DNA from: a virus
DNA: 64,000 nucleotides
Strand: one strand, 5' to 3'
Virus record (IMG/VR): IMGVR_UViG_3300005096_000071
Span: 1 to 64,000 of that record
Positions within the stretch are counted from its first letter, which is position 1. Each line of letters begins with the position of its first letter. Shown one piece after another: positions 4,744-48,207 of this stretch. The position numbers and the translations under genes are program-made. The notes below the pieces were generated by a model. The model had not been told where the DNA came from. It searched no databases and was given only the letters and a program-made list of their open reading frames with translations.

Positions 4744-7700
4744 GTGCCCGCGCTCGACATCATCACCGGCACATCGAACGGCGACTCCGACGGCAACGGC
4801 ACGGACGCCAACTCGTTTACGACCGAGTGCGAGACCGCCAGCGCATTGTTGGACGGCATCTCGTATCTCGTGTTGTACGACGGCGGTGCCAACATGGACG
4901 GCACGCCCAGTGACGGGGCCGAGTGCCAGCTTGAGTTCGACGGAGTCGAGCATGGGTTCTCCGCGACGAACGGGTTCGCGTTCAACCCACCCGACGGCGG
5001 GGTCGCCCGCCCGCTCTCTGGCGCCACCATAATCGAGGGGGACGGGTCCGAGACCGTCACGATCCAGTGCCGCCACACCGGCACCACGGGGGTCGAGTAC
5101 ATGTGGCAGGGCGGGTCGCTGATCTGCATCCCGCTCGATCAGCTCACTCGCAACCGCGACTATTGGTTCGGCGGCGGCGGGACGGTCGGCAACTCAAGCA
5201 CGCTCGGGGTCAACAGCACGACGGCCGTGCTCACGCCAGCGAGTTCGGCAGCGTGGGCGCAGATCGGAACAGCGGTACGCGTGACGGCGGTCGAGACGGG
5301 CCCGCACCTGATCGTCCTCACTGCAGAGGCGCAATACCAGAGCGACGCCAACGCCGACGAGATCAGACTCCGCCCTCGGCAGACCTCGGACGTTGGCGGG
5401 TCACCGACCACGGCGACGATGGGGGTAGGGTCGGGCGGCGGTACTCCAGAGATTCGGATCCAAGGGCGAGCCTCGGACGCCGAAACAGAGTCAAACTCGA
5501 ACCGATACTCGGAGACCGTTACCCTTACGGCGGGTGTTACGTACGACTTTTTCCTCGAAGCCGAGGGGGTCAACGGCGACGTTGAGTACCGACGCGCGCG
5601 CTACATCGTCGTCGACGGCTCAGCGTTCGGTGAAATGTCCACATTCGAGGACACCACCGGCGTGCAAGAAGCCGCGCCGACCACGACCGTCGTGGGGCCG
5701 CTGACGATCGCCGACCCTGGCACCGCGTACGACTACGTGGTGATCGCCTCGACCTCGTTTCAGAACAACGGCAGCTGGCATCAGATGCGGATCGACCTGG
5801 ACGGCACCGACAATGTCACGAACGGAGGCCGCGGATCGGCGGGGTCGAACAACGGCACCGCGACCACGGACGACTACCACTGGCTGTCCATGGCGTGGCC
5901 GGTGAACATCCCAGCGACCTCGACGCCCGACTACGAGATCAACCTAAGCGTGACGATAACGCTGGCCACCGACTGTCCGATCGGGTTCGAGCCAGGCGGC
6001 GAGGCGGCCGATTCGATCCGACAAACGATCACCGCGTGGCGCATGGAGGTGATCCGGCTGAACGCCGAGGTCGACGCGTCGTTGTTGCTGCCGACGATGG
6101 CCGCATCGGCGACCGTCACTGGTTCGGCGAACAACATCACGATGGACGCGGCGCTCCCCCTGCCGGTGATGGACACGGCCGCGGTTGCAGGGACGCAAGC
6201 AACGATCGACACGACGCTGCCGATCCCCACAGCGACGATCGACGCCCGGATCTTAGTTGAGGCGGCGATGGACGCCGATCTGCCGCTGCCGCTCTCCGCC
6301 ATCTTGGCAACGGTGGCGACCTCGGCGGCGATGGACGCCGATCTGCCGCTGCCGCTGATGGACGCCGCGGCGGTGACGTCGAGCGTACTCACGGCCGCGA
6401 TGGACGCGGACCTGCCCCTCCCCGTGATGGACGCGGCAGCAATCGACGCAACGGCGACGGCGATGGACGCGGCGCTTCCGATGCCGGTGATGGACGCGGT
6501 GACATCCCGGGGTCTCAGCGGGGCGATGGACGCGGATCTTCCGCTCCCTACGGCCGACATCGCGGCCGGGATCGTTGGCGAGGTCACGATGGACGCCGCG
6601 CTTCCCCTTCCCGTGATGGACGCCACAACGGTCCGGGCGTTATCCGGGGCGATGGACGCGGACCTCCTCGTCCCGGTGATGGCAGCAGGGGCGATCATCG
6701 TGGGGGCGCCGACCAATGCGGTCCTGGACGCGAACCTCCCGCTGCCCACGATGGACGCTGTGACGACGTCGGGCCTCGCGGCAGCGATGGACGCGGACCT
6801 CCCGATCCCGACCGCGATGATCGCGGCCACGGCGGCCCACCTCGCAGCGATGGACGCGGACCTCCTCGTTCCCACGATGGACACAGCCACAGTGGTCGCC
6901 ACGGCGGTAGCGATGGACGCGGACCTTCCGGTGCCAACGATGGCGGCGGCGACGGTCCGGGCTGCGTCTGGAGCCCTGGACGCTACCCTGCTGGTCCCCA
7001 CTATGGTGGCGGTCGCGAACGTCACGCTCCCCCCCGAGGCAGCGATGGACGCAGATCTTCCGATGCCGGTGATGGACGCGGTCGCCGCGGTGCTGATCGA
7101 TGCAGCGATGGACGCGGACCTCCCCCTACCCACGATGGACGCGATCGTTGCCGCGATGACCTCGGCGGCCCTGGATGCCTCCCTTCCGCTCCCGCTGGCG
7201 GCGATCGCCACGGCGGCCCTGCCCAACATCACGATGGACGCGGCGCTCCCCCTGCCGGTGATGGATGCCGTAGCGGATGCGCCACCCCTCCCCGGAGGAG
7301 GAGGCGTAGGCGGGTCGCTCGTGTGGACCCCCGAGCTGCGGGTCCCCGAGGCGGTGGTGTCCGAGGTCTGGGCCCCCGAGGTGTGGGCCACGCGGGCCGG
7401 AGGCGACATCCTGGCGGCCTTGGGTGACACGTTCGGGGGCGCAAGCCTGGATCCGTCCTGGACTGTCGAGGACATCAACGCGGCGCTTGACGGGGCCTCT
7501 GGCGTGTCTGGAGGGGAGTACAACCTCCGGATGTCAGCCGGTGGTGCGGCGGGCTCGTGGTGGTCTGACGACAACGCCGGGATCCTGATCTACAAGGAAA
7601 TCGTTGGCCCGTTCATGATGCGGTGCCGCGTGCGGGTTCGGAACGACGCCGACTCGGGCGCGCCACCCACCGGGGCGCTCGGGAAGTACTGCGGCCTCGC

Positions 7701-8166
7701 TGCGCACGACCCAGATCGCACAGCTCTGAACTACGTGCACCTTGTGGCCGGCTCCGACGTCGCGGCCTCTGTCGAGTGGCAGACGACCGACGCCATCGCG
7801 GGCGGATCGACTGACACGACGGCACGGGACCCACTCACGGCCCCACCGAACGGGACAGTGGAGATCGATCTCCAACTCGTGCGCCGCGCGAGCGACCAAC
7901 AGATCTTTGATCTGTCCTACCGGGATGCGACCGGCGGCCACACGCTCGCGAACGACGTGGTCCCTTTCACCGCACTGCAGACGATCGACCGGACCGACAA
8001 CACGACGCCAGGACGGGCAGCCAGCGGGGCAGCGGCCGACGTGGCCGTTTCGCTCCCGGCACGCCTCCGCGTCGGGATGGTAGGGTACTCAGTGCAAGCA
8101 GCGGACGACGTGCAAGGGTTTTTCGAGGAGATCATCGTCTCCCGCGATCACCCTTCGATCACCTAG
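4744..8166 (+). CDS. 1140-aa repeat-built fibre-like virion protein
   Basis: GTG start. Three regions are visible. Residues 1-440 are Ser/Thr/Gly/Asp-rich and beta-like, and include MGVGSGGGTPEIRIQGRAS. Residues about 443-845 consist of about 19 tandem units of roughly 21 residues, each starting like MDADLPLPVMDA followed by 8-10 Ala/Val/Thr/Ile residues. After a Gly/Pro linker, residues about 880-1140 look like a concanavalin/jelly-roll lectin domain (SWTVEDINAALDGASG, GPFMMRCRVRVRNDAD, LYARLRVG-type strands). The plan of repetitive shaft plus lectin-like tip suggests a fibre or receptor-binding appendage, here encoded beside head genes. Function inferred from architecture only. Confidence 0.65.
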   Translation: MPALDIITGTSNGDSDGNGTDANSFTTECETASALLDGISYLVLYDGGANMDGTPSDGAECQLEFDGVEHGFSATNGFAFNPPDGGVARPLSGATIIEGDGSETVTIQCRHTGTTGVEYMWQGGSLICIPLDQLTRNRDYWFGGGGTVGNSSTLGVNSTTAVLTPASSAAWAQIGTAVRVTAVETGPHLIVLTAEAQYQSDANADEIRLRPRQTSDVGGSPTTATMGVGSGGGTPEIRIQGRASDAETESNSNRYSETVTLTAGVTYDFFLEAEGVNGDVEYRRARYIVVDGSAFGEMSTFEDTTGVQEAAPTTTVVGPLTIADPGTAYDYVVIASTSFQNNGSWHQMRIDLDGTDNVTNGGRGSAGSNNGTATTDDYHWLSMAWPVNIPATSTPDYEINLSVTITLATDCPIGFEPGGEAADSIRQTITAWRMEVIRLNAEVDASLLLPTMAASATVTGSANNITMDAALPLPVMDTAAVAGTQATIDTTLPIPTATIDARILVEAAMDADLPLPLSAILATVATSAAMDADLPLPLMDAAAVTSSVLTAAMDADLPLPVMDAAAIDATATAMDAALPMPVMDAVTSRGLSGAMDADLPLPTADIAAGIVGEVTMDAALPLPVMDATTVRALSGAMDADLLVPVMAAGAIIVGAPTNAVLDANLPLPTMDAVTTSGLAAAMDADLPIPTAMIAATAAHLAAMDADLLVPTMDTATVVATAVAMDADLPVPTMAAATVRAASGALDATLLVPTMVAVANVTLPPEAAMDADLPMPVMDAVAAVLIDAAMDADLPLPTMDAIVAAMTSAALDASLPLPLAAIATAALPNITMDAALPLPVMDAVADAPPLPGGGGVGGSLVWTPELRVPEAVVSEVWAPEVWATRAGGDILAALGDTFGGASLDPSWTVEDINAALDGASGVSGGEYNLRMSAGGAAGSWWSDDNAGILIYKEIVGPFMMRCRVRVRNDADSGAPPTGALGKYCGLAAHDPDRTALNYVHLVAGSDVAASVEWQTTDAIAGGSTDTTARDPLTAPPNGTVEIDLQLVRRASDQQIFDLSYRDATGGHTLANDVVPFTALQTIDRTDNTTPGRAASGAAADVAVSLPARLRVGMVGYSVQAADDVQGFFEEIIVSRDHPSIT
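6073..7275 (+). repeat. about 19 tandem units of about 63 nt coding the MDADLPLP repeat
   Basis: Degenerate tandem repeat inside the fibre-like gene. Units are near 63 nt with a strongly conserved core (ATGGACGCGGACCT then CCGCTGCC-type codons) and variable Ala/Val/Thr tails. Units with LDANLPLP, LDATLLVP and MDTATVVA variants show divergence by point mutation. The opposite strand is also open for more than 500 codons, a by-product of the repeat. Confidence 0.9.
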
Positions 8167-8179
8167 GGATACCCAGCCA

Positions 8180-8659
8180 ATGCCATTCGAAACCGACAAC
8201 ATGCTCCACGACAAGCGGTGGCGACAACTCCGCGACAACGGTGGTGGCGGCGTGTCTGCCGACGCGGACTTCACCGATCCCGCCAACCTCGCTGCGTTCA
8301 TTGCCCTCGTGCCACAGAGCACGCCGAGCCGAACACCCGACGGCGACGAGGTCAAGCAGATCGTGTTCTACGTCGTCGGGTACAACGCGGCTGGGGCCGT
8401 CCTCGCGCGTGGGTCGGCGGCATTCGACCTCCTGGTGTACGAGTTCATCCGGACACACGACATAAGGGAGAATGACCTCGCTGGTGTCAGCATCCCGTCG
8501 GCGGTGATCGACTCGGCCCCGATCTCGACGAACGTCACGCTGTCCCGGAAGATCGCGATCAACGCCAAGGGGATCAACCGATTTCAGATCGGGATCCAGA
8601 ACCTCGCGAACATGCCGGCGACACTCGACCGGTTCCGGATCTTCTGGCGTCCCGAGTAA
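8180..8659 (+). CDS. virion-associated protein after the fibre gene
   Basis: 159 aa. Starts 13 nt after the fibre-like gene and ends (TAA 8657-8659) immediately at the tRNA on the other strand. Sequence alternates short strands (VKQIVFYVVGYNAAGAVLARG, SRKIAINAKGINRFQIGIQN), consistent with a beta-sandwich accessory or adaptor for the preceding fibre. No family recognised. Confidence 0.5.
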   Translation: MPFETDNMLHDKRWRQLRDNGGGGVSADADFTDPANLAAFIALVPQSTPSRTPDGDEVKQIVFYVVGYNAAGAVLARGSAAFDLLVYEFIRTHDIRENDLAGVSIPSAVIDSAPISTNVTLSRKIAINAKGINRFQIGIQNLANMPATLDRFRIFWRPE

Positions 8660-8731
8660 GATGGGAGAGGGACTCGAACCCTCGACCTACGGCTTAACAG
8701 GCCGCAGCTCTACCGACTGAGCTACCCCATC
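8660..8731 (-). tRNA. tRNA-Asn(GTT)
   Basis: Clean cloverleaf on the - strand. Acceptor GATGGGG pairs with TCCCATC (one G-U), D-stem GCTC/GAGC, anticodon stem GCGGC/GCCGT with loop CTGTTAA, T-arm GAGGG TTCGAGT CCCTC. No CCA is encoded, and the base after the acceptor is T. It begins exactly where the + strand gene stop ends. Confidence 0.9.
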
Positions 8732-8738
8732 AATAAGT

Positions 8739-8767
8739 TAGGCCGCGGGGGATCGAACCCCACGATG
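8739..8767 (-). other. 3' half of a tRNA (T-arm and acceptor strand only)
   Basis: Read on the - strand, TGGGG TTCGATC CCCCG followed by CGGCCTA looks like a T-arm plus 3' acceptor strand. No matching D-arm, anticodon arm or 5' acceptor strand (TAGGCCG) is seen upstream. Could be a tRNA remnant or a phage attachment core, since integrases often use tRNA 3' halves; no integrase is visible in this window. Confidence 0.4.
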
Positions 8768-8777
8768 GGCCCAGAGA

Positions 8778-9044
8778 TCAGCGCGAGCGCTTGGAGGCCG
8801 CTCGCATCGCGGGCGTTTTCTTCGCGCTCGTTCGTTTCTTTGCCGGCTTAGCTTTAGCCTTCGCGATCTTCGCGATCTTGGCGAGCGCCTCGGCCGCCTT
8901 CTTTGCCTCCGCGGCTTGACGGCCGGCCTCCAGCTGGGCGGCCTTCATCCGGGTAGGATCGTCCTTGATCTCCTCGCTGTTGGCGAGAGTTCGGGCGTCG
9001 TTCTCGGCCCGCCACTTTTTGTCTTGCGCGCTTAGTGTACTCAT
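8778..9044 (-). CDS. small Lys/Ala-rich basic protein
   Basis: 88 aa. N-terminus (MSTLSAQDKKWRAENDARTL) resembles short phage proteins with an 'RW-AE-DARTLA' start. The C-terminal half is a Lys/Ala/Arg tail (AKAKPAKKRTSAKK) like histone H1 tails, suggesting nucleic-acid binding. Overlaps the upstream gene start by 4 nt (ATGA), so the two are translationally coupled. Confidence 0.6.
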   Translation of the reverse strand: MSTLSAQDKKWRAENDARTLANSEEIKDDPTRMKAAQLEAGRQAAEAKKAAEALAKIAKIAKAKAKPAKKRTSAKKTPAMRAASKRSR

Positions 9045-10482: not shown

Positions 10483-10725
10483 CTAAAACAGATCCGACCA
10501 TGCGGAGTAGCTCCCCTGCAGGCTCCGACGGACCCGCCAAGCCGAGCCGGGATCCTCCTTTGCGCACCGGTTAGCGCAAGCCTCGGCGTCGCTCAGGTGC
10601 GTAAACGAGTCCATGATGTCCCCCGGTCCCGTTTTGTCACCGTACGGCGCAGGGTTGGCGTGGACCGCCCCGACGGGGCTGGCGGAGTTCTCCGGATGGC
10701 GGATGGTGGCGTCGCTGTTGGTCAT
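10483..10725 (-). CDS. small cassette-driven protein
   Basis: 80 aa, starts MTNSDATIRHPENSASPVGA directly behind the cassette with the perfect palindrome. The middle (SFTHLSDAEACANRCAKEDPGSAWRV) reads like a small folded unit responding to a query-type DA-xCANR motif; no family recognised. MTN is the start shared by most cassette genes. Confidence 0.6.
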   Translation of the reverse strand: MTNSDATIRHPENSASPVGAVHANPAPYGDKTGPGDIMDSFTHLSDAEACANRCAKEDPGSAWRVRRSLQGSYSAWSDLF

Positions 10726-10780
10726 TGCTCAGTGAGCGTACACTAACCCGGGCGCATTGCAACCGGGTTAGTGTACAAAG
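10726..10780 (-). promoter_or_regulatory. start cassette 1, perfect 14-bp inverted repeat
   Basis: GTACACTAACCCGG (10738-10751), 11-nt spacer, CCGGGTTAGTGTAC (10763-10776): a perfect 14-bp dyad. On the - strand TTGCAA is 16 nt from TACGCT, which is 9 nt from ATG 10725. Best example of the operator symmetry. Confidence 0.85.
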
Positions 10781-11110
10781 TCAAAACGAGTCGAAAGCCC
10801 GAATGATCTCGTCTAGTTCGGACCGTTTTATGACGATCCCGCTGGCGACCGTCAGTCGGACGACCCGATCATCTCCCCGAGAAACATCCCACGAGATGTC
10901 GGCCAACTCGAACCGACCCGCGACGACGATCGGACGACCGCGATCCGCCAGGTTCACGCGTGGAGCTTCGCGTGTGGGATGGCTCGCGCGTTGAGCCTGG
11001 AGCTGTCGCCGAAGCCTGATCACCTCGGCCTCGGCCGTCATTGCAGCGGAGCGCGCCTCGGCTATCACGGTGCCACACTCGCGTAGCACCTCGGATAGCA
11101 ACACGCTCAT
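10781..11110 (-). CDS. coiled-coil plus small beta domain, unknown
   Basis: 109 aa, second gene of the operon from cassette 2; ATG overlaps the previous stop by 4 nt. Residues 1-45 are helical/coiled (AEARSAAMTAEAEVIRLRRQLQ). Residues 50-109 look like a small beta domain (VVAGRFELADISWDVSRGDD). The stop lies next to cassette 1. Unknown function. Confidence 0.6.
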   Translation of the reverse strand: MSVLLSEVLRECGTVIAEARSAAMTAEAEVIRLRRQLQAQRASHPTREAPRVNLADRGRPIVVAGRFELADISWDVSRGDDRVVRLTVASGIVIKRSELDEIIRAFDSF

Positions 11111-11295
11111 CGGGAGTAGCTCCCCTCGCTGCTGCCCTGCTTTGGGACATGGACCGTGAGGGTCCCACTGGATGATGCGCTCCGGACCCTCAAGCCATAC
11201 GACCGCAGAATGTCGTCCGAGTAGCCCGCGCTGGCGCGGTTGAAGTTCGCGGACGGGGCGGCGGTGAGGTCGACCGTTTCGGAGTAGTTCGTCAT
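11107..11295 (-). CDS. small cassette-driven protein
   Basis: 62 aa starting MTNYSETVDLTAAPSANFNR at the cassette ATG; an upstream in-frame ATG at 11328 lies inside the promoter and is less likely. Ser/Thr-rich, ends TLTVHVPKQGSSEGSYSR. Unknown function. Confidence 0.6.
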   Translation of the reverse strand: MTNYSETVDLTAAPSANFNRASAGYSDDILRSYGLRVRSASSSGTLTVHVPKQGSSEGSYSR

Positions 11296-11350
11296 TGCTC
11301 GATTAACGTACACGATCACGGGCGGCAAATCAACCCTTGTCGTGCACTTT
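11296..11350 (-). promoter_or_regulatory. start cassette 2
   Basis: AAAGTGCAC, TTGATT (-35-like), GTGTACGTT with -10-like TACGTT, then 9 nt to ATG 11295. The two arms share CACGA (GTGCACGA and the complement of TCGTGTAC). Overlaps the 3' end of the 11330-11656 gene, whose last codons it encodes. Confidence 0.75.
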
Positions 11351-12194: not shown

Positions 12195-12455
12195 TTAGGC
12201 GTGCTCGATACCCTCGACCGGGCCAGCCTTGGGCGACATCGAGCCGATCCCCTTCATGGCCCAGATGATGCCGTCGAACAGGGTCCAGACAGCGTTCGCG
12301 CTACCGCGCGGGCCGGTGATGTCGAGGCCGTCGGCGTCGATGTTGCTCACGGTCCCCTTGACGAACCCGACACCCTGGACGGAGATCTTCACTTTGTCGC
12401 CGACTTTGAGGTCGAGGAGCGTTTTGGCGGTGTCGGTGGCGGTTGCGTTGGTCAT
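12195..12455 (-). CDS. small beta-barrel-like protein
   Basis: 86 aa from the cassette ATG (MTNATATDTAKTLLDLKVGD). VGDKVKISVQGVGFVKGTVSNIDADGLDI has the alternation of an SH3/KOW-like small barrel ('VGDkVkv...GfvkGtV'), often a nucleic-acid or protein contact domain. Ends EGIEHA. Not assignable to a family. Confidence 0.6.
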   Translation of the reverse strand: MTNATATDTAKTLLDLKVGDKVKISVQGVGFVKGTVSNIDADGLDITGPRGSANAVWTLFDGIIWAMKGIGSMSPKAGPVEGIEHA

Positions 12456-12510
12456 TGCTCCGATAATGTACACTGCCCCGGGCGCACTGCAACCCCCGGG
12501 GTGCACTTTG
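12456..12510 (-). promoter_or_regulatory. start cassette 3
   Basis: AAAGTGCAC, TTGCAG, GTGTACATT (-10-like TACATT), 9 nt to ATG 12455, start context GGAGCAATGAC. Arms GTGCACCCCGGG and CCCGGGGCAGTGTAC are partly palindromic. Confidence 0.8.
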
Positions 12511-12516
12511 TTCGAA

Positions 12517-12732
12517 CTATTTCGCGGGCCCCTCGATCCGGATCTCTTTGTTGTAGTGAGCGTGGGCGGAGATGAGGCCGTGCTGCTGGAGTTCGGCGCA
12601 CACGCGGATGGTGGCTTTCGCGTTGCGGCTGAAGGTGAGATGCTTGCCAGCGGCGAAGTACGCGCCCCATCGCTTCATAAAGCGGGTGGCTTTGGGAGAT
12701 AGTTCGGCGGGGGTGGTGTCGGCGTTCGTCAT
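12517..12732 (-). CDS. small winged-helix-like protein
   Basis: 71 aa (MTNADTTPAELSPKATRFMK). LSPKATRFMKRWGAY...FSRNAKATIRVCAELQQHGLIS could be a small helical, wHTH-like unit; a similar 'SP-A---LK-LGL(I/V)S' pattern is seen in the 13717-13923 protein, so the two may be distant paralogues. Possible DNA-binding protein, low certainty. Confidence 0.55.
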   Translation of the reverse strand: MTNADTTPAELSPKATRFMKRWGAYFAAGKHLTFSRNAKATIRVCAELQQHGLISAHAHYNKEIRIEGPAK

Positions 12733-12786
12733 TGCCTGTACATAGTACACCATCACGCGGGCATTGCAACCGGGGTAGTGCACTTT
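12733..12786 (-). promoter_or_regulatory. start cassette 4
   Basis: AAAGTGCAC, TTGCAA, GTGTAC with -10-like TACTAT, then 9 nt (GTACAGGCA) to ATG 12732. Start context is GGCAATGAC, lacking the GAG of most copies. An extra GTAC lies between -10 and start. Confidence 0.75.
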
Positions 12787-12873: not shown

Positions 12874-13065
12874 CTAGCAGTGGGCGAGCCAGTTGGTAGC
12901 CTCGGCGGCGGTATCGAAGGTCTCGCGGTGAGAGTGGAGCCGGCCCGTCTCAAGGCTGGTCCAGTCGGTCACCACGTGCCAGACCTTTGCGGCCAGGCCT
13001 TGCTTGGCTACGATTCCGGTCTCGATGCGGCGGGTCTTGGCGGGGGTTGGCGTCGTGTCGGTCAT
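12874..13065 (-). CDS. 63-aa cassette-driven protein
   Basis: MTDTTPTPAKTRRIETGIVA start at the cassette. Ends with HRETFDTAAEATNWLAHC. The beta-turn-beta then helix pattern (VWHVVTDW ... HRETFDTAAEATNWL) resembles small one-domain phage proteins; function unknown. The 87 nt downstream to cassette 4 hold only GC-rich sequence. Confidence 0.6.
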   Translation of the reverse strand: MTDTTPTPAKTRRIETGIVAKQGLAAKVWHVVTDWTSLETGRLHSHRETFDTAAEATNWLAHC

Positions 13066-13134
13066 TGCTCAGCCATCGTACACTATCACGGGCGCATTAC
13101 AACCGTGGCGTGCACTTTGTTTGAAGAAAGATCA
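13066..13134 (-). promoter_or_regulatory. start cassette 5 with upstream TGATCTTTCTTC block
   Basis: AAAGTGCAC, TTGTAA, GTGTACGAT (TACGAT), 9 nt to ATG 13065 with context TGAGCAATGAC. Upstream block TGATCTTTCTTC begins with the stop codon of the next gene and recurs at cassettes 7 and 12, so the repeated unit is about 70 bp here. Confidence 0.8.
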
Positions 13135-13380: not shown

Positions 13381-13623
13381 TCACACCGGCGATGCCCCGC
13401 GCGGCGTACCGGGCGGGGCTGGGCGCTGGTGGCTCCGCACGTCCAGGTTGCTCTCGTGCTCGATACCCTCGACGGCAAACGAGGTGGCGAAGAAGTACAG
13501 GCGCGCGATCTTGTGGCCGTGGGTGTTGGTCTCGACTCGCCAACCGTCGATCGTGGTGTTGTTGAAGTCACCAACGAAGGTGCGGGCGGCGGCTCGGGTT
13601 CAGATGTCGTTGCGCGTTGTCAT
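13381..13623 (-). CDS. cassette-driven small gene interrupted by in-frame TGA
   Basis: Starts at the cassette ATG 13623 as MTTRNDI, then TGA at 13600-13602, then continues in the same frame for 72 codons (TRAAARTFVGDFNNTTIDGW, RVETNTHGHKIARLYFFATS) to a second TGA. The downstream part has strong coding bias, and no start codon precedes it. TGG to TGA mutation, sequence error or stop readthrough are all possible; Trp would fit the position. Function unknown. Confidence 0.55.
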
Positions 13624-13677
13624 TGCTCAATCAATGTACACTACTGGGAGCGGATCGCAAGTAGTGCGGTGCACTTT
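13624..13677 (-). promoter_or_regulatory. start cassette 6
   Basis: AAAGTGCAC, TTGCGA, GTGTACATT (TACATT), 9 nt to ATG 13623, context TGAGCAATGAC. Upstream CATCTTCCTTC matches the TGATCTTTCTTC block approximately. Intact although the gene it drives is interrupted. Confidence 0.8.
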
Positions 13678-13716: not shown

Positions 13717-13923
13717 CTATGCCTCAAAGGAGGATGGGTCGGAGCAGTAGCCCTTGGCGCGGTGTGTGGCGACAAGTAACCCCGCGGTGTGCTCGGATAC
13801 CAAGCCGAGGACCTTGAGGTGCCTCACGGCGGCCGGCGAGAAGTCGCGAACACGACGAGAACCGGTGCGAAGTGAGGCAAGGGTTGCGCGGCAGGAGAGA
13901 GTAATGGCGGTCGGCGTCGGCAT
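13717..13923 (-). CDS. small helical protein, possible DNA-binding
   Basis: 68 aa, MPTPTAITLSCRATLASLRT at the cassette ATG. RDFSPAAVRHLKVLGLVSEHTAGL is helical and similar in pattern to a segment of the 12517-12732 protein. Ends RAKGYCSDPSSFEA. Function unknown. Confidence 0.55.
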   Translation of the reverse strand: MPTPTAITLSCRATLASLRTGSRRVRDFSPAAVRHLKVLGLVSEHTAGLLVATHRAKGYCSDPSSFEA

Positions 13924-13992
13924 TGCTCCACTGTTGTACACTATCCCGCGACGCATGCAAGCGCCGCGGTGCACTTTGTTTGAAGAAAGATC
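13924..13992 (-). promoter_or_regulatory. start cassette 7 with upstream TGATCTTTCTTC block
   Basis: AAAGTGCAC, TTGCAT, GTGTACAAC (TACAAC), 9 nt to ATG 13923, context GGAGCAATG. The upstream TGATCTTTCTTC again begins at the stop codon of the next gene (13991). Confidence 0.8.
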
Positions 13993-14433: not shown

Positions 14434-14543
14434 CAGCCAACCCCCACGAACGTGCACGAACCCCGGCGATCCGCATCGTCGGCCAGCCACGACTCGGCGG
14501 CGGGCGGAACAGAGCGACTCCAAACGATTTTTTCTGCGGCCAT
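14433..14543 (-). CDS. 36-aa cassette-driven protein
   Basis: MAAEKIVWSRSVPPAAESWL then ADDADRRGSCTFVGVG, stop TGA overlapping the next ATG by 1 nt. The cassette ATG, the coupling and codon use all support it. Too short to classify. Confidence 0.6.
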   Translation of the reverse strand: MAAEKIVWSRSVPPAAESWLADDADRRGSCTFVGVG

Positions 14544-14605
14544 TGCTCAGTTAATATACACGGCACACGGCACACGAGCACGGCGCAACCCGGTTCGTGC
14601 ACTTT
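14544..14605 (-). promoter_or_regulatory. start cassette 8, with a 7-bp duplication
   Basis: AAAGTGCAC, TTGCGC, then a tandem GTGCCGT GTGCCGT that lengthens the spacer by about 8 nt, then GTGTATATT (TATATT, the most consensus -10 of the set), 9 nt to ATG 14543. Spacing between -35 and -10 parts is therefore abnormal, which suggests the -10 and start geometry matter most. Confidence 0.7.
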
Positions 14606-14975: not shown

Positions 14976-15125
14976 TTAGCTCGCGACCCACTCGCTGAAC
15001 GTTTTGGCACCCTGGACACCATGGCAGTCCAGGTAGATCTCGTATTCCCACTGGAGCCTTTGCGGCGCGTCGGATGCGGCGGAGAGTAGGGAGCGGTACT
15101 TGCGGGTGGCGGCTGCGTTGGTCAT
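14976..15125 (-). CDS. 49-aa cassette-driven protein
   Basis: MTNAAATRKYRSLLSAASDA then PQRLQWEYEIYLDCHGVQGA and KTFSEWVAS, stop TAA 14976. Begins exactly at the cassette ATG. Likely helical; no family recognised. Confidence 0.65.
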   Translation of the reverse strand: MTNAAATRKYRSLLSAASDAPQRLQWEYEIYLDCHGVQGAKTFSEWVAS

Positions 15126-15179
15126 TGCCTAGACACCGTACACCATCGGGCGAGCATTGCAACCCCGGTGGTGCACTTT
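15126..15179 (-). promoter_or_regulatory. start cassette 9
   Basis: AAAGTGCAC, TTGCAA, GTGTACGGT (TACGGT), 9 nt to ATG 15125, start context GGCAATGAC. Arms GTGCACCACCGGGG and GCCCGATGGTGTAC match at 12 of 14 dyad positions. Confidence 0.8.
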
Positions 15180-15190: not shown

Positions 15191-15493
15191 CTACAGGCGC
15201 CCGATGGACTGGACGATCTCCACGTTGCCGTTTCGGCGGCGGAGCGCCATATAGAGCGTTTTGGCGCGGGGGCTGTCGAGGACGACACCGAGATCTTCGG
15301 CCATGGATGGGGCCGCGCGGCGGGTGTTGGGTCCTGCGCAGGTGGCAACGTGCACGCGGTAGGTGCGCCCGTTTGTCGCGGTTACCAGGGAGCCAACGGC
15401 GGTCGGCGTGATGGCGGCTTGGCGGTAGGCCTCGGCGGCCACGAAAGCGGTGTGGGCGGTCAGGGCGGCGGCGGAGTCGGTTGCGTTCGTCAT
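15191..15493 (-). CDS. 100-aa cassette-driven protein
   Basis: MTNATDSAAALTAHTAFVAA at the cassette ATG. N-terminal 35 residues helical. Then VGSLVTATNGRTYRVHVATCAG, strands typical of a small barrel or roll, and a C-terminal helix (SPRAKTLYMALRRRNGNVEI). Function unknown. Confidence 0.65.
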   Translation of the reverse strand: MTNATDSAAALTAHTAFVAAEAYRQAAITPTAVGSLVTATNGRTYRVHVATCAGPNTRRAAPSMAEDLGVVLDSPRAKTLYMALRRRNGNVEIVQSIGRL

Positions 15494-15547
15494 TGCAAGG
15501 TCACTGTACACTATCGGGGAGCGGTTGCAAGGTCGGTGGTGCACTTT
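15494..15547 (-). promoter_or_regulatory. start cassette 10
   Basis: AAAGTGCAC, TTGCAA, GTGTACAGT (TACAGT), 9 nt to ATG 15493; the start context is CTTGCAATGAC rather than TGAGCAATGAC. Confidence 0.8.
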
Positions 15548-16139: not shown

Positions 16140-16194
16140 AAAGTGCACATATTCACTTGCGCTCCACCCGGTAGTAGTGCACAGTAGTGGAGCA
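16140..16194 (+). promoter_or_regulatory. start cassette 11 (+)
   Basis: AAAGTGCAC, TTGCGC, then GTGCAC in place of GTGTAC, -10-like CACAGT, 9 nt to ATG 16195, context GGAGCAATGAC. First rightward copy; both half-sites are GTGCAC. Confidence 0.75.
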
Positions 16195-16551
16195 ATGACG
16201 ATGACAGCGCCAACCGCCGCCAATCCTGCCAAGCTCTCCGACGGATCGTGGGGCGCCCGCGTCAAGGGTGCCGTCTCCATCGGAGACGAGTTGCTCGTTA
16301 CCACCCGCGCGGGCAAGTCTTGGGCCGCGACCGTGGCGGACGTCGTGAGTGAGCGTGACGGAGTCTCGCTGGTCTCGACCGAAAGCCGCAAGGCTGCCCC
16401 GAGGCGCGGTAGTTCGAGGCGCAGCTCGGGGGGAATCTGTGATAACTGCGACGAGCCGCGGCGGAATCTCCAGTCGGCTGTCGACACCTCGGGCATCGGG
16501 GGACGGGTCTGCCCTAGATGCGTACGCGAGGGGGACCTCAGTTTCGCGTAA
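16195..16551 (+). CDS. small barrel plus zinc-ribbon protein
   Basis: 118 aa from the cassette ATG (MTMTAPTAANPAKLSDGSWG). Residues 15-65 resemble an SH3-like barrel (ARVKGAVSIGDELLVTTRAG). The C-terminal part has ICDNCDEPRR and VCPRCVREGD, two CxxC knuckles about 27 residues apart, a zinc ribbon. Probably contacts nucleic acid or protein. The barrel-plus-ribbon plan also occurs, without sequence identity, in the 47649-48152 protein. Confidence 0.6.
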   Translation: MTMTAPTAANPAKLSDGSWGARVKGAVSIGDELLVTTRAGKSWAATVADVVSERDGVSLVSTESRKAAPRRGSSRRSSGGICDNCDEPRRNLQSAVDTSGIGGRVCPRCVREGDLSFA

Positions 16552-16815: not shown

Positions 16816-16885
16816 TGATCTTTCTTCGGAAAAAGTGCACAACCCCGCTTGCACCTCGACCACGATAGTGTACAGTGACTGAGCA
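16816..16885 (+). promoter_or_regulatory. start cassette 12 (+) with upstream block
   Basis: TGATCTTTCTTC, AAAGTGCAC, TTGCAC, GTGTACAGT (TACAGT), 9 nt to ATG 16886, context TGAGCAATGAC. Full-length copy in + orientation. Confidence 0.85.
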
Positions 16886-17068
16886 ATGACAAACGCAAAC
16901 AACACCGCCCTCATCGAGACCCTCACCACCGCAGACCAGGCTCGCGCCGACGCCATCACAGCCGCACGTCTTATGGACGACCCAGAGCCCTATGTCTCGA
17001 CCGAGGATCCAGTGAGACGCGGTTGGGGTTACGGCGAAGCGTGGCTCGCTGAAGAGAACCAAGGATGA
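16886..17068 (+). CDS. 60-aa cassette-driven protein
   Basis: MTNANNTALIETLTTADQAR and ending GYGEAWLAEENQG. Helical, acidic. First gene of a run of four (16886-18401) transcribed from cassette 12. Unknown function. Confidence 0.65.
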   Translation: MTNANNTALIETLTTADQARADAITAARLMDDPEPYVSTEDPVRRGWGYGEAWLAEENQG

Positions 17069-17755: not shown

Positions 17756-18401
17756 GCCTAGGCCAGGGCGACCGGTGCTCCGGCACGCGGGTAGGGCGGC
17801 CGAAACGGAGGCCCGGATGATCGAGGCTACGCGGCTCGATCCCCCGACGCACTCGGGGCGCACGCTCGTGGCGCTCCACATCGGGACCCACGAAAGCGTG
17901 GTGGGTCTTATGGCCGCCACGCGCTCCGGCCTCAATGCGTTCCGGACCTCCGAGGGTGCCATGATAGGCCGCGCCGATCTCATCGCGGCCGCGGAGTACA
18001 TAGACGGGCTGGGGCCGAGCCTGACCCTGATCCAACGCCGAGCGCTCTGGGCTGGCGCTCGCGATGCTCGCACCCTGAAGACCGTTCGATCGTTGGAGGG
18101 CCGCGGGCTAGCTAAACACGACCCCGACGCCAACACGGTGGCTCTGACCGGGCTCGGCCAGTACGTCGCCGAGGCTGTCGCGTTCATCGGGAAAGCCCGC
18201 TGGCGGGCGCCGTGGTTCATGAGGCTGGCCGCCGAGGAGTGGCCCGAGGACGCCGAGGCCGTGACGACAGAGCCGCGCCCGATCGGGTTCGTCGGAGCAT
18301 CGAACCGGATGAGGGAGCGCCACCGCGGGATCGCGGCCGCACTCGATCGGCTACTGCCGGATCTCGAACGGTCTGAGCTGTTTCGCGACAGTGCACTTTA
18401 G
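17748..18401 (+). CDS. possible winged-helix protein
   Basis: 217 aa from GTG 17748, overlapping the previous gene by 8 nt; ATG 17818 is an alternative. The segment LTLIQRRALWAGARDARTLKTVRSLEGRGLAKHDPDANTVALTGLG (parts: TLKTVRSLEGRGLAKH, NTVALTGLGQYVAEA) has the helix - recognition helix - wing form of wHTH proteins. A candidate regulator. Its last codons lie inside cassette 13 (GTGCACTTTAG is SALstop). Confidence 0.5.
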   Translation: MGRPRPGRPVLRHAGRAAETEARMIEATRLDPPTHSGRTLVALHIGTHESVVGLMAATRSGLNAFRTSEGAMIGRADLIAAAEYIDGLGPSLTLIQRRALWAGARDARTLKTVRSLEGRGLAKHDPDANTVALTGLGQYVAEAVAFIGKARWRAPWFMRLAAEEWPEDAEAVTTEPRPIGFVGASNRMRERHRGIAAALDRLLPDLERSELFRDSAL

Positions 18402-18442
18402 AGGTTGCGGCCTCGCGCTGGGTCGTGTACGTTGGGGGAGCA
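18391..18442 (+). promoter_or_regulatory. start cassette 13 (+)
   Basis: GTGCAC (flanking TTT in reversed order), TTGCGG, GTGTACGTT (TACGTT), 9 nt to ATG 18443, context GGAGCAATGCC. Overlaps the end of the preceding gene. Confidence 0.75.
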
Positions 18443-18658
18443 ATGCCGAAGGCTACACGAACCCAGGTTCCTCGGAGCGGGGAGGAGCTGCGGATCAAGC
18501 CGCGCGAGACCGGGGAGTGCGAGGTGCACGACTGGCCATCCGAGGGGATGGGCCTGCGGCTAGTCCAGGCAATGCGGGACCGGCTCGCCAAGGGGATCAA
18601 CGCGTGTCGGCCCTGCCTCGATCGCGCGCTGGCCGACGCTAAGAAAGCCCGATCATGA
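18443..18658 (+). CDS. small protein, possible metal site
   Basis: 71 aa (MPKATRTQVPRSGEELRIKP). ECEVHDW...INACRPCLDRALADAKKARS carries Cys-x(n)-His and CxxC, consistent with a small zinc site. First of an overlapping series to 20836. Confidence 0.6.
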   Translation: MPKATRTQVPRSGEELRIKPRETGECEVHDWPSEGMGLRLVQAMRDRLAKGINACRPCLDRALADAKKARS

Positions 18659-22614: not shown

Positions 22615-22657
22615 ACCGCTGGACAATGCCCATGGTGTCGTGTACATTGGCTGGGCA
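22615..22657 (+). promoter_or_regulatory. start cassette 14 (+), half version
   Basis: TGGACA, 17 nt, TACATT (in GTGTACATT), 9 nt to ATG 22658, context GGGCAATGAC. The outer GTGCAC half-site is missing, and the -35 is closer to the bacterial consensus, so this copy may be constitutive. The region is shared with the divergent 593-aa gene. Confidence 0.65.
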
Positions 22658-23524
22658 ATGACGCAACACAACGAAGCAGAGCGGATCGGGGTTGGCCGGA
22701 CAGACTACGCGGAGCGCCGCGAGGCCCGGGTGGACCGGCTCGAAGCGGCGGCAGCCACGGCCCAGACCAAGAGCAACGCGGCGCACGCGGGGGTCAAGGC
22801 GATCACGGACCACATCCCGATGGGACAGCCGATTTTGGTAGGGCACCACAGCGAAAAACGCGCGCGACGCGACCAGGACCGGATCCAAAACGGGACGCGC
22901 CGAGCCTTCGCGGCTGACGATGCCGAGCGGCTCCGATGCCGAGCGCGGTCCGCTGAGCGGAACACGGCGATCTCATCCGACGACTGCAGAGTTCGACGGT
23001 TGGCGCTTTCGCGTCCCGGACGCCGAGGGGAAACGACGAATGGATCTGTGCTCGGACTGCTTAGAAAAACGCGCGGGGGGAGAGTAGGTGGATCCGGCCG
23101 AGATCGCGCGGTTCATCGCCGAACAGCACACGCCCTGGCGGTACGTGCTGCACAAGCGATACACGGCGGACGGGATCGCGGGGTTGCTACAGCTCTTGGC
23201 GGAGACGCAAGACGAGCTAGAGAACGCCAAGAACACGCTGTCGCTGGCCACCGGAGGGTGCCTATGACGCGCAAGGGCCACAACCCCTACGGGCTCGTCA
23301 ACGACTGGCGGGGGCGTTGCTGGGGTGAAGGGTTCGCCGCCCGCGAGGCGTTGCGGGACCCCATGACGCAGCGGCAGCAGCGGGAGGGTTGCGTGGGGTC
23401 GGGTGACGTCGAGATCGCGACGGAGGTCTGGGTCACGATCTGGGACGAAAGCGGATCCAGCACGACGATCCCGCACCACACCCGCCGCGTGCCGCAGTGC
23501 TCGGCCGACGAGGTGGTCCCGTGA
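22658..23524 (+). CDS. DUF3560-domain ORF with unresolved 3' end
   Basis: From the cassette ATG (MTQHNEAERIGVGRTDYAER). Residues 20-75 match the DUF3560 pattern: basic coiled region, then IPMGQPILVGHHSEKRARRD, and SAERNTAISSDD. After about residue 108 the frame stops looking like protein although it stays open to 23524, reading through three better-looking small ORFs. Either a deletion fused genes out of frame, or the assembly has indels; normal DUF3560 proteins would end or continue differently here. Role of DUF3560 is unknown. Confidence 0.5.
   Translation: MTQHNEAERIGVGRTDYAERREARVDRLEAAAATAQTKSNAAHAGVKAITDHIPMGQPILVGHHSEKRARRDQDRIQNGTRRAFAADDAERLRCRARSAERNTAISSDDCRVRRLALSRPGRRGETTNGSVLGLLRKTRGGRVGGSGRDRAVHRRTAHALAVRAAQAIHGGRDRGVATALGGDARRARERQEHAVAGHRRVPMTRKGHNPYGLVNDWRGRCWGEGFAAREALRDPMTQRQQREGCVGSGDVEIATEVWVTIWDESGSSTTIPHHTRRVPQCSADEVVP
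22920..23087 (+). CDS. 55-aa ORF in another frame, Cys pair
   Basis: From ATG 22920 the frame gives TTAEFDGWRFRVPDAEGKRR then MDLCSDCLEKRAGGE to TAG 23085. The last 35 residues look coding (CxxC); the first 20 overlap the DUF3560 frame and do not. Likely the 3' part of a gene whose 5' part was lost or frameshifted. Confidence 0.4.
   Translation: MPSGSDAERGPLSGTRRSHPTTAEFDGWRFRVPDAEGKRRMDLCSDCLEKRAGGE
23088..23267 (+). CDS. 59-aa helical protein
   Basis: GTG immediately after the previous stop. MDPAEIARFIAEQHTPWRYV and then a long helix (GIAGLLQLLAETQDELENAK). Stop overlaps the next ATG by 4 nt (ATGA), supporting this frame over the DUF3560 extension. Confidence 0.55.
   Translation: MDPAEIARFIAEQHTPWRYVLHKRYTADGIAGLLQLLAETQDELENAKNTLSLATGGCL
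23264..23524 (+). CDS. 86-aa hypothetical protein
   Basis: ATG 23264 (MTRKGHNPYGLVNDWRGRCW). Same frame as the DUF3560 ORF but independently coding by codon use. Strand-rich end (EIATEVWVTIWDESGSSTTI). Overlaps next start by 4 nt (GTGA). Unknown. Confidence 0.5.
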   Translation: MTRKGHNPYGLVNDWRGRCWGEGFAAREALRDPMTQRQQREGCVGSGDVEIATEVWVTIWDESGSSTTIPHHTRRVPQCSADEVVP

Positions 23525-23850: not shown

Positions 23851-24227
23851 TCGCCTGCGACCCGTTCGACCCTGGAGAGTTCGGACCGTGTCCGGTGTGT
23901 GGCGGCGGGCTGTCCGAAAACTGCTCGGTGCAGTGCCCCGCCCACTCGATCTCGCGGAGGCACCAGGCCATCACGTGCACGGCCTACCGCTCAGGGAAAC
24001 GTGAGCCAATGAAGCTCCCGCCGAACCCGGTTTCAATCGACCCGGATCCCACCCCGCCGGGGCCAAGGCGCCGCACGCCATCCGAGATCGCAGAGGACCT
24101 CGAAATGTGGGCCGACTGCGTGGAGTGCACCGACAAGGATCTGGCCCTGGAGGCCGCGACCCGCCTACGCGAGCACGAGACCGCCGCGCTCAGTCTCGCG
24201 GTTGCACTCGCGAAAGGTGCACGATAA
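23847..24227 (+). CDS. Cys-rich N-terminus plus helical C-terminus
   Basis: 126 aa, GTG start. FGPCPVCGGGLSENCSVQCPAH is a zinc-ribbon-like block. From M57 (MKLPPNPVSIDPDPTPPGPR) the protein is Pro-rich then helical (CTDKDLALEAATRLREHETA); it might be a second gene fused by a lost stop. The last codons overlap cassette 15. Confidence 0.5.
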   Translation: MIACDPFDPGEFGPCPVCGGGLSENCSVQCPAHSISRRHQAITCTAYRSGKREPMKLPPNPVSIDPDPTPPGPRRRTPSEIAEDLEMWADCVECTDKDLALEAATRLREHETAALSLAVALAKGAR

Positions 24228-24269
24228 AGCTTGCGCCGCACTCCGTGGGCGTGTACGACGAGCGTAGCA
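24213..24269 (+). promoter_or_regulatory. start cassette 15 (+)
   Basis: AAAGGTGCAC, TTGCGC, GTGTACGAC (TACGAC), 10 nt to ATG 24270, context GTAGCAATGACC. Drives the ATPase gene. Confidence 0.75.
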
Positions 24270-25532
24270 ATGACCAAAATAATCGAACTACAGGCCTGTA
24301 ACTTCAAGCGGCTAAAGGCCGTGCACATTCGCCCTGATGGCCACACGGTGGTGCTCGGCGGCGGGAATGCGGAGGGGAAGACGTCTGTGTTGGACGCGAT
24401 CCAAGCTGCATTGGGTGGGGGCCGAGCTGCACCAGTGGAGCCGATTCGCCGCGGATGCTCGCGCGCCGAGGTTAGGCTGGAGTTAGACGAGTTGATCGTC
24501 ACGCGCTCGTTCTCGGGCGCGGGCTCCAAGATTGAGGTCCGGAGCAAGGAGTTTGGTAAGCTAAAATCGCCCCAAGCTGTTCTGGACAAACTGACGGACT
24601 CGCTGTCATTCGACCCACTGGCGTTCAGCCGCATGAAACCGGCCGACCAGGCGGAGACGCTTCGCGAGTTGGTGGGCCTGGACACCGGAGGGGTGGATGG
24701 AGAGATCCTCCAGCTCACAGAGGAGCGCAAGACGGCGAACCGCGAGGTAAAGCGTCTACAGGGCGTCGCTGATAGCTGCACCTTTCACAGAGAGGCGCCC
24801 GAACTAATAGTGTTGGTGGGGGACCTCGCCAACGACCTGGAGAGAGCATCAGCGCACAACGCCGAGCGGGATGGTCTGCTGAAGTCCGCGCACGCCAGTG
24901 ATCTGAAGCGGGAGCGGCGAGAGCAGAAGATACAGGATCTTGAGGCAATGCTCGCGGAGTACCGCCAGGAGATCGAGGACCTACGAGGGGCGGCTGAGAA
25001 GTGGCGCGGCGAGGCCCACGAGGTGGATGTGAAGGACACGGACGCGATCCGTACCGACCTCAACGAGGCGGAAGCGATCAACGAAAAGGTGCGAGACAAC
25101 ATCGCCTACCGAAACGCCCAACTGGAGCTGCACGCGGCGAAGGAGGCCGCGGGCAGCTTGGACAAGTCGCTGGACGGCGCGCGTTCCCGACGCCGCGAAC
25201 TGATCGAGGCGGTCACGTTCCCGATCGAGGGACTCGCTGTTTCGGACGCCGGAGTGACGTTTCGAGGGTTCGCGTTCGACCAGGCGTCCGGTGCGGAGCA
25301 GTTGAAGGTATCGGCGGCGATCGGGATCGCGATGAACCCGGATCTACGAGTACTGCTGATCCGAGACGGGTCACTGCTGGACAACGAGTCACTGCAAGCC
25401 CTGGGGGTGTTAGCGGAGGACGCCGACGCGCAACTGTGGATCGAGCGGGTCGGCGACGGCGACGAGGTCTCGGTCGTGATCGAGGACGGCGAGGTGGCCG
25501 AGCATAGGCCGTCGACAATAAGTACACAATAA
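24270..25532 (+). CDS. RecF/SMC-like ATPase
   Basis: 420 aa from the cassette ATG (MTKIIELQACNFKRLKAVHI). N-terminal beta strands then Walker A GGGNAEGKTS (about 33-42), the RecF/SbcC/Rad50-type P-loop. Residues about 165-300 are coiled coil (DLKRERREQKIQDLEAMLAE). The C-terminal head has SGAEQLKVSAAIGIAMNPDL, ABC signature-like, and DLRVLLIRDGSLLD, Walker B-like with D in place of the usual second acidic residue. Short coiled coil compared with Rad50. Likely acts in DNA recombination or repair; no nuclease partner is visible beside it. Confidence 0.75.
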   Translation: MTKIIELQACNFKRLKAVHIRPDGHTVVLGGGNAEGKTSVLDAIQAALGGGRAAPVEPIRRGCSRAEVRLELDELIVTRSFSGAGSKIEVRSKEFGKLKSPQAVLDKLTDSLSFDPLAFSRMKPADQAETLRELVGLDTGGVDGEILQLTEERKTANREVKRLQGVADSCTFHREAPELIVLVGDLANDLERASAHNAERDGLLKSAHASDLKRERREQKIQDLEAMLAEYRQEIEDLRGAAEKWRGEAHEVDVKDTDAIRTDLNEAEAINEKVRDNIAYRNAQLELHAAKEAAGSLDKSLDGARSRRRELIEAVTFPIEGLAVSDAGVTFRGFAFDQASGAEQLKVSAAIGIAMNPDLRVLLIRDGSLLDNESLQALGVLAEDADAQLWIERVGDGDEVSVVIEDGEVAEHRPSTISTQ

Positions 25533-25573
25533 GACTTGCGGAGCATTACTCGGCGGTGTACATAGTAAGGGCA
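25522..25573 (+). promoter_or_regulatory. start cassette 16 (+)
   Basis: GTACAC outer half-site, TTGCGG, GTGTACATA (TACATA), 9 nt to ATG 25574, context GGGCAATGGC. The outer half-site overlaps the stop region of the ATPase gene. Confidence 0.7.
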
Positions 25574-25801
25574 ATGGCGAAGAGAAAGAAGACACGGCGG
25601 TCGATCAGCGTGAAGGGCGCTACCTACCGCATGTTCAAGGTCCTGGCGGAGCGCCGGGGCCTCCCGGTCTCGGCGCTCACTGAGCAAGTGATGCTCCGCG
25701 AGCTTGACGGGACGGGGATCGTTGATCCAGGAGCGGCGCCGGTCGCACCGGCAACCTCAACCGAGCCCGAGGCGATTCCCTCGGCGCACTTCACGTTCTG
25801 A
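25574..25801 (+). CDS. possible ribbon-helix-helix protein
   Basis: 75 aa (MAKRKKTRRSISVKGATYRM). RSISVKGATYRMFKVLAERRGLPVSALTEQVM (parts SISVKGATYRMF, GLPVSALTEQVM) follows the strand - helix - helix plan of Arc/MetJ-type DNA-binding proteins with a basic N-terminus and a disordered Pro/Ala tail. A candidate binder of the cassette operator, on size and fold alone. Confidence 0.55.
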   Translation: MAKRKKTRRSISVKGATYRMFKVLAERRGLPVSALTEQVMLRELDGTGIVDPGAAPVAPATSTEPEAIPSAHFTF

Positions 25802-37200: not shown

Positions 37201-37460
37201 CGGTCTCGCCCCGTCTGACCGCCGACCCCGAAGCCGTTGGGGTTGTCGTCACCGGTGGGCGGTGTGGTGCGTAGCCAGACGACGATCTGGCTACCGCCGG
37301 CGTCGAGGAACCCGCGGTGGGGCTTTGCGTCGCTGGGGACGCCGTCGGGGCGGGGGGATCCCCACTCCTGGGCAACATCCCACTCTTGGATGTCGTGGAG
37401 CGGCCGCCCGGTGAAAACACAGCGGCCGGCGTTGGGGAGGGTGCGGGTTGGCGTCGTCAT
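37197..37460 (-). CDS. 87-aa cassette-driven protein
   Basis: Starts at the cassette ATG (MTTPTRTLPNAGRCVFTGRP). CVFTGRPLHDIQEWDVAQEW and beta-rich RGFLDAGGSQIVVWLRTTPP. First gene of the leftward operon 37460-35775. Unknown. Confidence 0.6.
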   Translation of the reverse strand: MTTPTRTLPNAGRCVFTGRPLHDIQEWDVAQEWGSPRPDGVPSDAKPHRGFLDAGGSQIVVWLRTTPPTGDDNPNGFGVGGQTGRDR

Positions 37461-37512
37461 TGCCCGAGCAACGTACACGCCGCGGGTGACCCGTGCAACC
37501 TGAAAAGTGCAC
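37461..37512 (-). promoter_or_regulatory. start cassette 17
   Basis: GTGCAC (flanking T-run reversed), TTGCAC, GTGTACGTT (TACGTT), 9 nt to ATG 37460, context GGGCAATGAC. Sits between this operon and the divergent tail module, 36 nt from the next + strand start. Confidence 0.75.
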
Positions 37513-37548
37513 GATGCCACAGTGCGCGTTCTGCGGTAGCCTGGGCTC

Positions 37549-47648: not shown

Positions 47649-48152
47649 TTAGCAGTCGAACTCGTCGAACGCACATGCTCCGCAGTACCCCTCCATCGCT
47701 ACGTGGTGGGGTGCGTCGACGAGCGCGCCTCGGCACTCCTTACACCTGGTCTGCGGGCGACCGGCCCGTGGTGACCGTTTGCGTTGCACGACGCGACAGA
47801 GAAAACCGGTCCCACTCTCCACGACAGACTCCACCGTTTCTGTTTTCGTAGAGCCAGATGCCTTCATAACCTCCAACTTGCTCCCTGCCGCGGGCCGGTC
47901 CCCGTAGACCATCACCGCCCACGAGCCGTCCTCCGTTTTCGTGTAGGAGGCACCAGCAATGGCGCGTCCGGTGAATGAGCCGGCAAGCGATGCCTTGCCA
48001 GTCCACCACGCGCTTTCGTTGGGATCCCAACGAAAGCCGGCGGATCGAAGGTCGTGTCGCATCGGGTATGTGTTACCGCGCACATAATGTCGTCGTCCCT
48101 TCTTCTCGATGCTAAGCGAATCTGCGGGGCGGGTTGCGTTGGCGTCGGTCAT
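47649..48152 (-). CDS. DUF5710-like plus zinc-ribbon protein
   Basis: 167 aa, cassette ATG 48152 (MTDANATRPADSLSIEKKGR). RHYVRGNTYPMRHDLRSAGFRWDPNESAWW (parts HYVRGNTYPMRHDL, GFRWDPNESAWW) resembles the 'y-vRGnTYpvk--lk--G-rWd---k-W' small domain. Middle GSKLEVMKASGSTKTETVES may be a barrel. The C-terminus has RCKECRGALV and GYCGACAFDE zinc knuckles. First gene of the operon leading into the IbrAB-like genes. Confidence 0.6.
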   Translation of the reverse strand: MTDANATRPADSLSIEKKGRRHYVRGNTYPMRHDLRSAGFRWDPNESAWWTGKASLAGSFTGRAIAGASYTKTEDGSWAVMVYGDRPAAGSKLEVMKASGSTKTETVESVVESGTGFLCRVVQRKRSPRAGRPQTRCKECRGALVDAPHHVAMEGYCGACAFDEFDC

Positions 48153-48207
48153 TGCTCAGATGTTGTACACGACCGATGGGCGCGGCGCAAGCTAAATCGT
48201 GCACTTT
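48153..48207 (-). promoter_or_regulatory. start cassette 18, controls the IbrAB-like operon
   Basis: AAAGTGCAC, TTGCGC, GTGTACAAC (TACAAC), 9 nt to ATG 48152, context TGAGCAATGAC. Overlaps the stop of the nucleotidase gene by 2 nt. Places the imported operon under the phage cassette. Confidence 0.8.

Follow-up and report, generated by a model that had tools for sequence, protein, structure and literature searches.

We analysed the first 64 kb (hereafter the window) of the 91,158-bp IMG/VR virus record IMGVR_UViG_3300005096_000071, in which a short cassette recurs ahead of many genes and one copy, at positions 10738-10776, carries an inverted repeat with perfect arms. These cassettes probably constitute one family of sigma-70-type phage promoters that are near-leaderless and are each flanked by inverted half-sites for a common regulator, a reading to which we assign a probability of about 0.7. 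An earlier note on this DNA had taken the perfect inverted repeat to define the operator of the family; we found this copy to be an outlier in a family whose arms show no in-register covariation.

Read in the sense of the gene that follows it, the cassette is AAAGTGCAC-N8-TTGC-N15/16-GTGTAC-RWT-N6-GCA-ATG, its final ATG serving to start the next gene, and in its longer form the consensus is TTCGRAY-AAAGTGCAC-N8-TTGC-N15/16-GTGTAC-N9-GCAATG. Using a tolerant scan of the 91-kb record we identified 19 full copies in total, of which 17 lie in the window and 2 at ~88.5 and ~90.9 kb, and a weight-matrix scan added a half copy at 22640 in which GTGTACATTGGCTGGGCAATG is present and the upstream box is absent. 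The 18 copies counted previously equal the 17 full copies plus the half copy in the window, and the repeats sit directly ahead of genes. First-order Markov controls yielded almost no cassette matches of similar score, and the exact motif gave 8 matches in the record versus 0 for a reversed control pattern. The copies run leftward between 10.7 and 15.5 kb and rightward between 16.1 and 25.6 kb and are scattered later; they are confined to non-structural gene regions, with none across the capsid and tail gene regions. On both strands, GCAATG lies 9 bp past the downstream box in all 19 copies (10 bp in one). The copies located in the window, together with the gene behind the perfect one, are the following:

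10723..10776, minus strand: perfect-dyad copy of the cassette (arms at 10738-10751 and at 10763-10776; -35 TTGCAA; -10 TACGCT; ATG at 10725)
10483..10725, minus strand: gene of 80 amino acids behind the dyad copy, start ATG at 10725
11293..11350, minus strand: cassette copy, AAAGTGCAC ... GTGTAC ... GCAATG
12453..12509, minus strand: cassette copy
12730..12786, minus strand: cassette copy
13063..13118, minus strand: cassette copy, upstream arm one base shorter
13621..13677, minus strand: cassette copy opening a frame of only 7 amino acids (7 codons, 13600-13623), the gene behind it looking degenerate or broken unless this is an assembly error
13921..13977, minus strand: cassette copy
14541..14605, minus strand: cassette copy whose spacer between -35 and -10 (TATATT) carries a short tandem insertion
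15123..15179, minus strand: cassette copy ("cassette 9"), elements at 15138-15176, inner arms 6/8 paired
15491..15547, minus strand: cassette copy opening the leftward cluster
16140..16197, plus strand: cassette copy that opens the rightward cluster and points away from the copy at 15547
16832..16888, plus strand: cassette copy
18388..18445, plus strand: cassette copy
22620..22660, plus strand: half copy, GTGTACATTGGCTGGGCAATG, TGGACA 17 bp before TACATT; a DUF3560 gene starts at 22658
24214..24272, plus strand: cassette copy preceding the gene of an SMC-like ATPase with an AAA_23 match from residue 7
25519..25576, plus strand: cassette copy
37458..37515, minus strand: cassette copy
48150..48207, minus strand: cassette copy

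Aligned over the 19 full copies, the cassette appears to hold a sigma-70-type promoter, with TTGCnn as the candidate -35 (TTG in 19/19 copies, TTGC in 17/19) and TACRWT as the candidate -10 (TA in 18-19/19, C in 18/19, a purine in 18/19, A or T in 14/19, and the last T in 14/19 against a background of 17%). The two hexamers are 16-17 bp apart, in agreement with the sigma-70 pattern of TANNNT and TTGnnn at 16-18 bp. The distance between TTGC and GTGTAC differs by one base between copies (more in the copy at 14605), and the 9 nt from the end of the -10 to the ATG are constant in all but one copy. The earlier operator account had overlooked this promoter within the element as well as the constant spacing between it and the start codon. 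Assuming the usual 6-nt discriminator, the predicted transcription start is the G of GCAATG, which would leave a leader of ~3 nt. In high-GC bacteria, a TANNNT near the start codon is a mark of leaderless genes (PMC3160421, PMC3898074).

A Shine-Dalgarno core suitably spaced from the start codon was present in none of the 18 motif genes, compared with 43 of the 116 other genes (P = 0.0007), a contrast that is somewhat inflated because the gene caller had a slight preference for such sequences. Two of the start codons, at 24270 and 22658, are backed by domain matches that begin near the N-terminus (AAA_23 from residue 7 and DUF3560 from residue 17, respectively). The half copy at 22640 retains the -10 and, 17 bp upstream of it, the -35-like hexamer TGGACA, the upstream box being gone, as would be expected if promoter and operator were separable. 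The first codons of the motif genes are alike in otherwise unrelated genes (ATG AC- AAC GC-, encoding MTNA..., with the wobble position of codon 2 free), for instance at 12455, 15125, 15493 and 16886; this may reflect start-codon context or shared N-termini.

The two outer boxes read as one conserved half-site, YAAnGTRCACnAY, placed in inverted orientation on either side of the promoter. Written in a common direction, the two half-sites are YAAAGTGCACnAY (upstream) and YAAnGTACACnAY (downstream), with a likeness that continues outside the GTRCAC core into the flanks (P = 0.0005 when flank columns were shuffled). The centres lie 33-34 bp apart, one half-site at ~-45 and the other over the -10; the distance of about three helical turns given in the earlier note is therefore what we measured, and the part of its dimer-operator idea that calls for two inverted half-sites at this distance in each cassette stands. 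Such paired half-sites probably represent two sites for one dimeric regulator, and because one of them covers the -10 they suggest repression, activation being possible. Two helix-turn-helix (HTH) proteins are encoded in the record, at 69719-70492 and 72806-73135, and are no more than candidates for the regulator. A stretch of 1.4 kb without a called gene (record 71348-72806; 7348-8806 of locus L011) directly precedes the gene for the Cro/C1-type HTH protein (72806).

We then considered the copy that had drawn attention to the family. In the window, positions 10738-10776 read GTACACTAACCCGG-GCGCATTGCAA-CCGGGTTAGTGTAC, exactly as described before, with perfect 14-bp arms, complementary over their full length, and an 11-nt centre holding TTGCAA. 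On the plus strand the core is GCGCATTGCAA, with TTGCAA at its right edge, and on the minus strand, which is that of the gene, it is TTGCAATGCGC. The stop codon of the gene upstream (TGA, 10781-10783) lies 4 nt from the upstream arm, and the 80-amino-acid gene behind the copy had no Pfam match. The dyad ranks among the strongest short inverted repeats in the 64 kb, where other perfect inverted repeats of at least 14 bp with a short loop are also present. Taking the arms as independent and using the column frequencies of the family, a match at all eight inner positions has an expectation of ~0.004 among the 19 copies, and a match at all 14 positions one of ~0.0003. Perfect arms are thus unusual, and chance is a poor explanation for them because the expectation for the inner positions is only 0.004.

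The downstream arm of this copy is ordinary, and it is the upstream arm that has left the consensus: GTGCAC is replaced by GTACAC, the first inner base by T and, just outside the 14-bp arm, AAA by TTT, resulting in a half-site GTACAC preceded by TTT where the family has AAAGTGCAC. Within the 14 bp, this arm is the complement of the downstream arm of the same copy. Because the upstream arm has both left the consensus and come to match its own downstream arm, it was most likely rewritten from that arm by a replication template switch. Three papers (PMC7202029, PMC8604942, PMC8794818) describe template switching between imperfect inverted-repeat arms as increasing their likeness.

Covariation of the arms was assessed among the copies of this one genome. 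In register, the eight inner positions formed 51 pairs, against 51.1 with the arms re-dealt between copies (43 against 46.9 without the perfect copy), and in an alignment of 15 copies 70.0% of the cells were paired, against 69.9% after shuffling, with 268 of 500 shuffles as high. At most 3/8 inner pairs were present in 13 of the 17 copies, and two copies besides the perfect one reached 5/8 and 6/8. Pairing that equals that of re-dealt arms contradicts the earlier claim that the arms covary under selection for symmetry, and the check proposed with that claim, an alignment of the arms in search of compensatory changes, returned none in register. The independent variation of the arms that the earlier note had named as its refutation is thus seen here, between copies of one genome rather than between relatives. 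As to the particulars given with it, the CACGA common to both arms at cassette 2 is present, and the 12 of 14 pairs at cassette 9 hold only when a G.U wobble is allowed, the number being 11 under strict Watson-Crick pairing. A dyad-symmetry operator under selection, in which a symmetric dimer would read the full 14-bp arms and the arms would change together, could explain the perfect copy and the two copies next to it in pairing, and slid controls did pair less than the true register, although this is an effect of the outer six pairs, which hardly vary. Given the inner eight pairs, we consider such an operator very improbable. The result differed in one respect in the cluster at 10.7-15.5 kb, where, with bulges allowed, own arms folded slightly better than re-dealt arms (P = 0.006; without the perfect copy 0.047, or 0.05-0.10 varying with strand and energy model). 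This excess is not explained by a protein reading a fixed register, because several of the folds are slipped by 1-5 bases relative to the boxes. It could be expected of an RNA hairpin in the leader or in a read-through transcript, acting as an attenuator, a terminator or a translation block; the perfect copy would be very stable as RNA (-27 kcal/mol, z = -6.7), and several copies of the cluster fold better than their own shuffles. We nevertheless give a hairpin only a small chance: copies outside the cluster showed no fold-back excess (P = 0.84), no T run follows the arm, in-register covariation is absent, no known RNA family was matched at the dyad site in Rfam, and the dyad would fall upstream of the transcript start if the promoter is as predicted, although a transcript might also begin farther upstream.

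The position of the upstream box is also compatible with activator-dependent promoters, in which an activator on AAAGTGCAC at ~-45 would recruit the polymerase, GTGTAC would be part of an unusual -10 and no repressor would be involved. Activators that touch the polymerase bind at this place beside the -35, the -35 is imperfect (TTGC rather than TTGACA), and the half copy that has no box has a differing -35 (TGGACA). However, the inverted consensus of 12-13 bp common to the two boxes makes it probable that a single protein binds them, and the -10 lies under one of the two; we hold this explanation to be rather unlikely. Scarcely credible is a cassette that spreads without regulatory meaning, the promoter and first codons being copied as a unit whenever small genes are gained and their likeness being due to recent copying. 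The common first codons and the clustering of the copies are what such spreading would leave, but the spacers diverge freely while the boxes, -35, -10 and GCAATG stay constant, and the copies occupy both strands at distances of up to 80 kb.

We therefore return to a family of promoters flanked by inverted half-sites, which could operate in the following way. RNA polymerase would use TTGCnn as the -35 and TACRWT as the -10, 16-17 bp apart, transcription would begin ~3 nt ahead of the ATG, and translation of these genes would need no Shine-Dalgarno sequence. With both half-sites occupied by a dimer (or by two dimers) on one face of the DNA, the polymerase would be blocked; loss or alteration of this regulator would lift the block and switch ~20 non-structural genes in concert. 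The copy with the perfect dyad (10738-10776) is not the archetype of the operator; its upstream arm was most likely copied from the downstream arm via a template switch. A single perfect palindrome should accordingly not be taken for the operator of a family that has a consensus half-site and no symmetric co-change. More speculatively, and with considerable doubt, one element may join operator, promoter and near-leaderless start with favoured first codons and move as a unit, enrolling newly acquired small genes in one regulon, with quasi-palindromic arms that drift to local perfection by template switching, an outcome that would look selected and be mutational.

The phage probably infects an actinobacterium, because the best named relatives of its capsid protein are in Streptomyces and Streptosporangiaceae (35-38%), including Streptomyces phage Kromp (35%). 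Two IMG/VR contigs (L035 and L036) hold a closer capsid protein, ~60% identical; the cassette motif is absent from both, the contigs being no longer than 31 kb and perhaps lacking the same genes. Motif scans of viral and genome contigs gave only isolated, chance-like matches (one sequence shared by L001 and L002, and one match each in L013 and in the 19 loci L016-L034), and scanning these loci revealed no second good copy. A 43% relative of the SMC-like protein (L118) has a Shine-Dalgarno-like GAGGAGG at its start and no cassette. Among the matches listed (25 of 28 Pfam families, 121 proteins), there was no phage sigma factor, RNA polymerase or integrase.

Several points weigh against the interpretation that we prefer. 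The column statistics rest on copies that possibly share recent ancestry, and some of the columns counted had served to find the copies; the contrast in Shine-Dalgarno sequences was obtained with a gene caller that gave them a small bonus. The invariant GTG ahead of the -10 differs from the usual TGn extension, and its role in the promoter is putative. A single copy speaks for a template switch as the source of the perfect arm, and acetic acid bacteria also carry relatives of the capsid protein (29-30%). Finally, neither the motif scans nor a blastn search using one cassette as a query against 50,697 phage records, which retrieved no similar DNA, found a relative with the same cassette.

Other features of the record were recorded alongside. 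A large gene at 4744-8166 (1140 codons) contains about twelve copies of a 63-bp repeat around GCGATGGACGCGGACCT (Ala-Met-Asp-Ala-Asp-Leu) and had no family match, and the gene preceding the capsid gene has a long run of GAC codons at 94-276 and is Asp-rich there. We detected tRNA genes at 8659-8731 (Asn), 14763-14834 (with a two-base anticodon call) and 33496-33652 (two adjacent, Leu and one found by Rfam only). A PAPS-reductase-like protein with a DUF3440 domain, encoded at 45870-47282, matches phage "auxiliary metabolic" families. The capsid gene (1000-2412) and a tape-measure-like gene (49933-52155) are ~48 kb apart with non-structural genes in between, which is either an unusual order for a tailed phage or the result of a permuted record.

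The closest parallel in organization comes from cluster K mycobacteriophages (TM4, Anaya, Adephagia), whose extended start-associated sequences (ESAS) are imperfect inverted repeats recurring at the start codons of non-structural genes (PMC3203893). ESAS arrays have been known since 2011, with their role and regulator unsettled; those of Adephagia are reported to contain SigA-like hexamers 17-18 bp apart and have been proposed to be targets of a repressor (PMC11373665), and Pope et al. noted that the ESAS arms do not support RNA pairing (PMC3203893). The cassettes resemble them in lying just before non-structural start codons, in forming an imperfect inverted repeat around a SigA-like -35 and -10 (with a spacing of 16-17 bp in the cassette) and in having arms without covariation of the RNA-hairpin kind. 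Their sequences differ, ESAS reading TTGACATGCATACAG...CTGTATGCATACCAAC where the cassette reads AAAGTGCAC...GTGTAC, and upon reading six Adephagia elements directly and comparing them by eye we found that the cassette copies do not match the ESAS consensus TTGACATGCATAC.... The left arm of ESAS contains the -35, whereas that of the cassette lies upstream of it. Most ESAS, not all, are followed by a separate 13-bp start-associated sequence (SAS) with AGGAG (GGGATAGGAGCCC) before the ATG; the cassette has no SAS but N6-GCA before the ATG, no Shine-Dalgarno core in 18 genes and an ATG ~3 nt from the predicted transcription start. Unlike ESAS, the cassettes run in both directions. The array thus appears to work like an ESAS array without being ESAS by sequence, and a second array with this architecture and an unrelated sequence in a distant phage suggests a convergent or shared regulatory design. 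The half copy that splits promoter from operator, together with the predicted near-leaderless starts, would make it a cleaner system to test.

Start-associated inverted repeats of 18 bp are also described in Microbacterium phages of cluster EG, and of 17 bp in mycobacteriophages of cluster O, the latter described as similar in organization (PMC7302621). In cluster EG the repeat forms a compact palindrome, GATCAACCnnGGTTGATC, whereas the cassette has half-sites 33 bp apart around a promoter. The start itself is most like the leaderless TANNNT promoters of actinobacteria, with a TANNNT close to the ATG and no Shine-Dalgarno sequence (PMC3160421, PMC3898074). From the first T of the -10 to the ATG there are 15 nt in the cassette versus ~12 in leaderless genes, hence the predicted leader of ~3 nt, and unlike those promoters the cassette keeps a conserved -35 and flanking boxes.
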